64,000 nucleotides of DNA from Rhodamnia argentea (lineage: Eukaryota; Streptophyta; Magnoliopsida; Myrtales; Myrtaceae): NCBI RefSeq assembly GCF_020921035.1, contig NC_063157.1, positions 3,720,001 through 3,784,000 on the forward strand. Reading direction: 5' to 3'. Below the pieces are notes generated by a model. It ran no database searches and was not told where the DNA came from. It saw only the letters and a list, made by a program, of their open reading frames with translations. Of this stretch, positions 51,445-53,642 are shown one piece after another. The stretch's first letter is position 1. Each line of letters opens with the position of its first letter. Position numbers and translations under genes: made by a program.

Positions 51445-53642
51445 ATGGGAAAGTTTAAGCTCGGCATTAACGGTCAGTTGCTTATCATCTCGGCTGCACT
51501 GTCCATGTTTTCTGTTTTTCTTCTTTTGTTTTTGATCTCGCGCTTTGTTGATCGTGGTGGTCTTTTTTTGGTGCTAAGGTTTTGGCAGGATCAACCGCTT
51601 GGTGGCCAGAGTTGCACCCCAGAGGGACCAGGTGGAGCTCGTCGCCATCAACGACCTGTTCATCACTACTAACTACACGGTACTTTTGCTCCCCTCAATG
51701 CGTGCATGCATGTGTCTGTGCTGCGTCGCCGTGCCACATTCATGACGATCGCTTTCAAAACTATCTTTTTTAAACTCTTGTGCTGCATGTTGATCCGAAT
51801 GTGGAGTTGTGTTCCTTTCGCCCTATATCTGGTTGTTTAGCTCTCGCAATTCAGGATGCGATAGATTGAATCAGAATGAATACCTACCTGACCTTGACAT
51901 TATCTCCAATGCTAGGTGCACTGCCAACTGATCTCTGGCATGCGTTATGGTACCACTAGCCAAGCAGGCGGGTGCCAGATCATTCACGTCAAATCGAATG
52001 ACGATCTTCAAATCCTACGTGATGCTTGTCAAAAGATAACCAAGGCGAGGAATAACATTGTGGAGACGAGCGCCGTTCATTCTGTCCAAACGAGCGCTGA
52101 TCGTTCTGGCCATCGTTTTGTCCATCATCATATTGTTTTGATATTGGAAAGAGTCATAGGAACGGGTAGTCATGGGACTACAACTTTCCACGGGACTTAT
52201 TGCAATCGACGTGTTGCGGTGAAGCGGCTTGTTCGTGGTCACCGTAAAGTTGCCGAAGGGATACACGCCAATTTATTAGATTGTCGGCACCCAAATGTCG
52301 TACTGTATGAACCCGTGATAGAAAGCAACGATTTCATATATATCTGTCAAGATCTTTGTGATGGCACTCTAACGGATATAGTTCGAGCAGTTTCAACACA
52401 TGCGAACCTCCTTGCTTTCTCTAACGTGAAATACGGAGAAAAATTGGAACACCTTAGGCAGCTAATGAAGAATTTTGAGTTGTGGACGTCTCCTGGGCGT
52501 CCGACACTTCTGCTGTTGAATCTCATGAGGTAGTATTTACGGCTTAATATAACATTTTGTTTCTAAAGATTTCTGAGTGTTTAAGATGCTATTTAATTGG
52601 TGGTTTTTTAATCATGTCTATTTATCATACGGGGACATGACATTAGCAGTGGCTCATTTGCACGAGTTGAATATTATTCACGGAGATATCGGGCCCGATA
52701 ATGTGCTGATTACCATGAGTGACATGTTATCGGCTAGATTGACCGATATGGGAATCATCAAATGCCTCCAAGGAGGGAATTCCGTCTGGGAAAATCGTGG
52801 TTATGGTAAGTTTGATCTTCTACGAAAGTAATCATGACATCTTTATTTGTTGATCTCTGATGTTTGTTGTGAAATCTCGGACTGGCGAGAGCCGAATATG
52901 CTTCGTCGTAGGGCACTCCCAACACGAGAAGGCGATATATTCAATCTTGGGCGTGTCTTCCTTTTTTGTGTCACCTTGGGAAATCATGCCAAACCTCATA
53001 AAGCTCATGTAAATGGTTTGGATTGTGAGATTCAAGATTTGGTTTTGTCATTATTGAACCCGGCTCCTATGTTGAGGTAAGAGTGCTCTCTGATTTTAAT
53101 TGTTTCAGAAATTGCACGATGCTTTTAAACTACCTCAGTCTTTTTCGTGTATCATTTCTTCGAGATTTTGGGTCAATATTTAACTGTTTTTAATTACGGG
53201 CAGGCCAAAAGCATCAGAGGTACTCAAACATCCAGCGTTTTGGAACCAGGAGATGAGATTGTCATTTCTCCGAGACGTGAGCGATTGGTTAGAATTGGAA
53301 CCACCCAATTCATGTATTTCAAGAATAATTGAGAGCAAGCGTGGACAGATTTTTGGTGGTCGAACTTGGCATAATAAGGTGCATCCTGCTATTATGAAGA
53401 ACTTAATTCTCCATAGGCCTTACCATGTTACGAGGGTGAAAGCCTTGCTGCGAGCGATTCGAAATAGGTACAGCCACCACACAGCAACTTCACAGCAACT
53501 CCAGGCGATCGAGGGGCTAGTTCCTGAGGGCTTCGATTCTTATTATTCCAAACAATTTCCTAAACTCCTGATGCACTTACATGAAGTTATTTCCTTAAAT
53601 TGTAGGAGTGAAGGCGTCTTTAGAAAGTACTTTTCTAAGTGA
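51445..53642 (+). CDS. chimeric gene: GAPDH N-terminus joined to IRE1-like kinase/RNase
   Basis: Exon 1 (51445-51472, MGKFKLGIN) and exon 2 (51579-51679, [30 protein letters not shown]) are the first two exons of cytosolic GAPDH: 43 codons, ending in phase 0 at a GT donor. Exon 3 (51916-52529) follows a phase-0 AG acceptor. It adds about 60 unrecognised residues, then an IRE1 N-lobe ([26 protein letters not shown]). Exon 4 (52633-52805) reads [18 protein letters not shown] and LTDMGI. Exon 5 (52872-53076) carries the C-lobe. Exon 6 (53204-53642) is the KEN endoribonuclease domain ([34 protein letters not shown]). There is no luminal sensor or TM. The six exons join to an open 519-codon frame. 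However, the acceptors of exons 4 and 5 are GG and TG instead of AG, and HRDLK is HGDIG. It is either a recently dead gene or one with altered splicing; expression is unknown. Confidence 0.7.

Follow-up and report, generated by a model that had tools for sequence, protein, structure and literature searches.

The window analysed here is a stretch of 64,000 nucleotides of the Rhodamnia argentea genome (contig NC_063157.1, positions 3,720,001 to 3,784,000), and coordinates given without a contig are positions in it. At 51445 to 53642 on the plus strand, remnants of a GAPDH gene are followed directly by IRE1-like kinase and KEN RNase sequence. The window copy of this unit is designated A, its close paralogs B, C, D and E, and further relatives F5 to F8. 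The features of the locus are as follows.

51445..51472, plus strand: GAPDH exon 1 remnant; 10 residues, phase 1 end, donor GTCAGT (from translation and splice sites)
51579..51679, plus strand: GAPDH exon 2 remnant; donor GTACTT (from Pfam Gp_dh_N and codon comparison)
51869..51931, plus strand: decayed cysteine-exon remnant of GAPDH; ends with the TGA at 51929-51931, after which comes the GAPDH/IRE1 joint (from DNA matches, translation and alignment)
51913..51915, plus strand: TAG stop of the kinase frame, the AG of which is the acceptor of the original prediction
51932..52120, plus strand: pre-kinase segment, common to B-E and in part to F5, F7 and F8 (from alignments)
52121..52529, plus strand: exon 3, IRE1-like kinase N-lobe (start approximate)
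52530..52632, plus strand: IRE1 intron; donor GTAGTA, acceptor CGG (mostly CAG in other members), TAG at 52531 if retained
52633..52805, plus strand: exon 4, IRE1-like kinase; HRDLKP changed to HGDIGP, DMG kept, internal in-frame AGs before 52720 and 52738
52806..52865, plus strand: IRE1 intron; donor GTAAGT, acceptor-bearing stretch deleted (CAG/NT TGTGG in others)
52866..53076, plus strand: exon 5, IRE1-like kinase; in-frame cryptic AG directly before 52890
53077..53203, plus strand: IRE1 intron; GT and AG present
53204..53642, plus strand: exon 6, kinase end and whole KEN RNase domain, without the KEN-splitting intron of other members (from PF06479 and PDB IRE1 alignments)

Outside this locus, the window was found to contain a tandem duplication (21949-26178 and 30040-33852; copies offset by about 8 kb, with ten blocks at 80-92% identity) and two 78-nt tandem copies at 28310-28465, the first of which includes a GTTAGCTCAATGAGAGAGCAC box that we take, by resemblance, to be tRNA-like; a scan of the window with ARAGORN detected no tRNA. 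The minus strand carries, at 11959-14268 and 4226-6638, pieces of a subtilase gene (Peptidase_S8, fn3_6) and of a legume-lectin receptor kinase.

The 5' part of the locus resembles cytosolic GAPDH (GapC) in exons 1 and 2 and in the cysteine exon. As originally described, exons 1 and 2 comprise 43 codons with a phase-0 end; their splice sites are canonical GT/AG, and their translation matched Gp_dh_N in Pfam (2.2e-09). The nearest GAPDH gene (L011, C8:5284184-5287285), which begins MGKVKIGING and looks intact over the parts compared, aligns to window positions 51442-51753 at 77% identity, intron sequence included. Positions 51869-51930 match three GAPDH loci at the DNA level (L011 at 90%, L012 at 82% and L010 at 77%), and the remnant at 51869-51931 is presumably the exon holding the catalytic cysteine; its counterpart in L011 reads PDLDIVSNASCTTNCLA. 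Unlike GapC, the window has no visible internal exons between exon 2 and the cysteine exon, and neither the NAD-binding motif nor the cysteine exon is intact in it: the amino acid of exon 2 differs from that of the closest GAPDH in 7 of 33 whole codons, including a G to N change in GFGRIG, and the GAPDH-frame reading of the cysteine exon is ended by TGA after 18 residues. A further difference from GapC was found in the codon ratios. For exon 2, omega was 0.39 in the A-B lineage vs about 0.007 in other GAPDHs, the latter value being the lower limit of the fit (p=1.3e-7 vs one ratio; p=0.08 vs neutrality), and 0.21 for A alone (p=0.11). Judged from these ratios, constraint on the GAPDH part is relaxed in the A-B lineage.

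The downstream part was found to contain the predicted IRE1 kinase plus KEN RNase. A Pkinase match of 4.1e-20 was obtained on the joined model and of only 1.6e-4 on a 248-residue piece ending with exon 3 (Pfam). The KEN domain is complete (PF06479, 2.4e-31, positions 1-127 of 127), and its match is the top score of the genome, where other members are however split by an intron. Like full-length plant IRE1A and IRE1B, the locus has kinase-KEN homology, with IRE1 as the best match among PDB structures (1.3e-50). In alignments to 2rio and 3fbv, the RNase active-site Tyr, Arg, Asn and His of the window are identical to those of yeast IRE1, which we take to be Y1043, R1056, N1057 and H1061. The catalytic loop of the kinase is not intact: HRDLKPxN reads HGDIGPDN, a change that would make kinase activity unlikely. 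Unlike IRE1A and IRE1B, the locus has no visible luminal sensor, in agreement with the original description; none was matched by Pfam above the cut-off in five plus-strand open frames at 49541-51532, and upstream of the kinase its frame is closed by the TAG at 51913-51915, with GAPDH DNA beyond. The first ATG of the kinase frame is at 51940-51942, within the pre-kinase segment. This segment had been described as of unknown origin; it gave no Pfam match over 51932-52120 and proved to be common to paralogs B-E.

The window's own genome (346,658,060 bases in 74 contigs) was searched for relatives, the match counts being lower bounds. At least 34 matches to the exon-3 kinase query and at least 28 to KEN were found, the window included in both, and the KEN matches correspond to about 22 places when split genes are counted once. 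Clusters of IRE1-like kinase-KEN sequences were observed on contig C8 at about 3.59-4.04 Mb and about 5.37-5.90 Mb, and on C11 at 22.2-22.4 Mb; the window falls within the first of these, a series of 13 kinase matches. In one member on C11 (L030), an in-frame Met is found a short way upstream of the kinase; this member may lack the sensor and have no GAPDH part either. The closest relatives of A were all found on C8, B and C at about 5.371-5.377 Mb, D and E at about 5.416-5.425 Mb (94.5% identical to each other over 2.9 kb), and F5-F8 at 5.885-5.902 Mb. In a KEN tree of 24 rows, A-E, F5-F8 and a further copy, K42, formed one clade (support of 0.957 with protein and 0.999 with DNA), and the KEN intron is absent from this clade and present in other family members.

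GAPDH cysteine-exon DNA was found directly before the IRE1-like segment in A, B, D and E, with joints within tens of bases. Copy C carries the joint at C8:5374705-5374786 (score of 108 vs a shuffle maximum of 35; blastn 3.2e-22). At the same point, F5, F6, F7 and F8 have a weak GAPDH trace (0, 0, 0 and 1 of 500 shuffles as good), the controls being single-base shuffles and the F6 stretch having been chosen by position after three anchors failed. B also retains GAPDH exon 2, and no copy seen has a complete and unaltered GAPDH part. B and C face each other head to head, in opposite orientations, and a separate GAPDH remnant accompanies each of them (L003/L014/L018, C8 about 5371000-5377000). Since all of B-E carry the joint and traces persist in F5-F8, the GAPDH/IRE1 joint is old and duplicated; thus the claim that GAPDH and IRE1-like DNA are truly joined was upheld, and the joint is inherited. 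The kinase frame differs from the GAPDH frame in the window, as would be expected had an IRE1 copy and a GAPDH pseudogene upstream of it become neighbours by chance, at this locus only. That the two are unrelated neighbours is nonetheless scarcely credible, because all of B-E have the joint within tens of bases and F5-F8 show traces of it. An accident at a single locus was rejected on the same ground. An origin by reverse transcription was also rejected, as the locus retains the IRE1 introns and, of the GAPDH introns, the first and part of the second.

The original prediction placed the IRE1 part under a GAPDH promoter and joined it in phase, at a phase-0 acceptor before 51916, to a 43-codon GAPDH leader, with a fusion protein of 519 residues as the product. 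In its favor are the good splice sites of GAPDH exons 1 and 2, the open frame, the phase-0 AG at 51916 and the inheritance of the joint. The junction itself did not hold. The AG before 51916 sits within the decayed GAPDH cysteine exon, in another frame, and at the matching place B is out of phase, D meets a stop and E has no AG; no conserved in-phase splice junction between the GAPDH and IRE1 parents was found. The phase of the joint at 51916 is unremarkable, since 5 of the 16 AGs within 51740-52100 give an in-frame open join and would serve equally. By the GAPDH-frame reading, a stop precedes the kinase in all of A, B, D and E. A glycolytic promoter was likewise not recovered in the comparison with L011: homology begins only 3 nt before the window ATG, and the 200 bp before that ATG align to L011 upstream DNA no better than shuffles (17 vs a shuffle mean of 17.0), so that an L011-like promoter was rejected. 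Together with the relaxed GAPDH constraint and the acceptor defects described below, these findings make the fusion protein very improbable.

An open frame over six exons could be rebuilt, as predicted, with a length of 521 residues, or 519 if exon 5 begins at 52872, six bases later; it is a closest match only, because the original prediction gave no exon list. What failed was its splicing. At the exon borders of the family, the introns of the window are not all spliceable, as AG is missing at two of the five acceptors, those of exon 4 (CATACGG/GGAC) and exon 5 (GATGTTT/GTTG). At the exon-4 acceptor, four of five other members aligned read ATACAG (f19, C9, f5.531 and C11) and one reads ATACGG (f3.641); among the close relatives, CAG is found in D and F7, CGG in E, F5, F6 and F8, and other letters in B and C. 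For exon 5, CAG was found shortly before a TGTGG/TGTGA motif in 7 of the 9 members listed from 14 loci scanned (the exceptions being L026 and L029). The stretch with this acceptor is absent from A, B, C, D and E, and the loss is thus older than the separation of A-E. A reading of the exon-5 acceptor as TCTCGG, a plain AG to GG change, was dropped, as other members place the acceptor upstream, in the deleted stretch. In two relatives, L008 (1986-2441) and L007 (2056-2334), the kinase frame is open through former intron 4, as if this intron had turned coding after acceptor loss.

Apart from the two acceptor defects, both of them small, the frame is open, as would be seen if errors of assembly or base calling had marred an intact gene. 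This explanation has a very slim chance, however: the exon-5 loss is found also in B-E, about 1.6 Mb from the window on the same contig, and the exon-4 CGG recurs in E, F5, F6, F8 and f3.641.

A strong donor follows 52529, and retention of the intron leads to the TAG at 52531. Of the nine AGs in 52540-52760, seven run from this donor into a stop, and the two that remain open, before 52720 and 52738, skip the catalytic loop; the donor cannot be joined in frame to the start of exon 4 by way of an AG, the in-frame AGs being at 52720 or beyond. A transcript that uses the 52529 donor thus meets the TAG, meets another stop or skips the loop, and therefore no complete kinase-KEN protein is expected, but a damaged one at best. 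A scan of three strong donors, 11 exon-4 AGs, nine exon-5 AGs and the normal 53204 acceptor gave 99 routes in all, 12 of which were open to the end of KEN; HGDIGPDN was kept in none of the 12. Thus, the protein originally predicted cannot be made by ordinary splicing. Canonical GT-AG splicing could instead yield a protein whose kinase is damaged and whose KEN domain is intact, for example by joining 52529 to 52720 and 52805 to 52890, with 433 residues from the ATG at 51940.

These routes bear on whether the locus may be a living, sensorless IRE1-like gene that starts from its own ATG (51940) and uses the cryptic sites at 52720 or 52738 and at 52890, so as to combine a loop-less kinase remnant with an intact KEN domain. 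Its product would be a soluble RNase on a kinase-like scaffold, with the GAPDH remnants as 5' relics. The 12 routes from strong donors that reach an open KEN frame, the retained KEN active site and the sharing of most of the N-terminal segment with B-E speak for such a gene, as does a frame that is open although neutral evolution would be expected to have left about 6-8 stops in it. On the other side, every one of the open routes loses the catalytic loop, though in the window the loop region has an open frame and can be aligned, B, D and E lack the ATG at 51940, and constraint is not distinguishable from neutrality once outgroups are included (see below). We consider a living gene of this kind unlikely, though by no means negligible.

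Relative to the window peptide, stops or frameshifts were found in 9 of 9 other copies examined (some affected by misalignment), and the window copy has none over about 460 codons, which is in part by construction, because the window frame is the reference. Neutral simulations, which cover substitutions without indels and ignore that an open frame was chosen in the original prediction, gave a mean of 7.7 stops with no stop-free run in 2000 at the fitted branch length of 0.61, and a mean of 6.3 stops with 5 stop-free runs in 2000 at 0.46. The open frame is readily compatible with shorter neutral periods, for which the share of stop-free runs was 1.2% at a length of 0.30, 8.8% at 0.15 and 32% at 0.07.

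The dN/dS of the IRE1 part, proposed earlier as a check, gave a divided answer. Omega was estimated with our own codon-model script, with p values uncorrected across many branches, and alignment to the window peptide biases it downward. For the window branch, omega was 0.589 (p=0.044 vs 1) with nine copies but 0.782 (p=0.57) with outgroups over exons 4-5 and part of exon 6. The clearly dead copies B and C also gave 0.585 and 0.594 in the nine-copy fit, and none of the per-exon tests gave p<0.05 for the window branch. Stronger constraint is suggested for older branches, with omega of 0.30 on the stem and 0.395 (p=0.005) in the ancestor of B-E. The frameshift-tolerant alignment had misplaced the exon-6 end of D (where unrelated sequence follows), exon 6 of F8 and exon 3 of K42; in the selection fits the exon-6 end of D and exon 6 of F8 were masked and K42 was left out, and the outgroup fit was also run without F8.

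Taken together, these results suggest that the window locus is a decayed copy of a chimeric gene, an old chimera with late loss of function in the window copy, a reading to which we assign a probability of roughly 70%. Because the needed splice signals are missing, the window copy probably represents a dying gene rather than a new fusion protein. A cytosolic GAPDH gene would have contributed its 5' half, to the cysteine exon and with an internal deletion, which would have been joined at the DNA level to a sensorless IRE1-like kinase-RNase gene. We infer that this joining preceded the separation of copies A-E, and probably that of F5-F8. The joined unit would then have multiplied on contig C8, as one part of an IRE1-like family that is much larger. 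The exon-5 acceptor would have been lost already in the ancestor of A-E; the kinase-RNase frame would have stayed open longest in the window copy, the exon-4 acceptor of which now ends in GG, and loss of function there was probably late, such that a useful protein would no longer be made. Against a decayed copy stand the open frame of about 460 codons, beyond neutral expectation, the retained KEN active site, the open splice routes, the window omega of 0.59 in one data set and the top KEN score in the genome. A more adventurous version, in which a sensorless IRE1 RNase on a pseudokinase scaffold was driven by the GAPDH 5' end of a working ancestral chimera of the clade, the chimera multiplied within one contig, and the window copy is the last RNase-capable member by way of loop-skipping splicing, appears to us a long shot.

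A natural comparison is Arabidopsis IRE1C (AT3G11870), described in two papers as a sensorless IRE1 of Brassicaceae with the kinase and RNase halves, for which its authors suggested an origin by partial gene duplication; it retains the transmembrane domain, transcripts of it are known, and it has a role in the development of gametophytes in ire1 mutants (PMC6883098, PMC6788458). By sequence likeness, the window copy similarly has the IRE1 kinase and RNase halves without the ER-luminal sensor. Unlike IRE1C, it has GAPDH remnants in front, HGDIGP in place of HRDLKP and defective acceptors. Chimeric genes and pseudogenes that arise by partial duplication, with the 5' part of one gene before part of another and introns kept, form a known class. 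The present case differs from the usual members of this class in that the chimeric unit has itself been duplicated and that its GAPDH part is incomplete or altered wherever it was seen. Neither a GAPDH-IRE1 chimera nor an expansion of IRE1 in Myrtaceae appeared in the titles and abstract beginnings among the literature matches listed.

The locus shows the multiplication of IRE1-like kinase-RNase sequences in one plant genome, and that a fragment of a housekeeping gene can be carried along as a fused relic. The wider IRE1-like family includes members of intact appearance, which, as IRE1C suggests, could serve as RNases in roles other than the sensing of ER stress.
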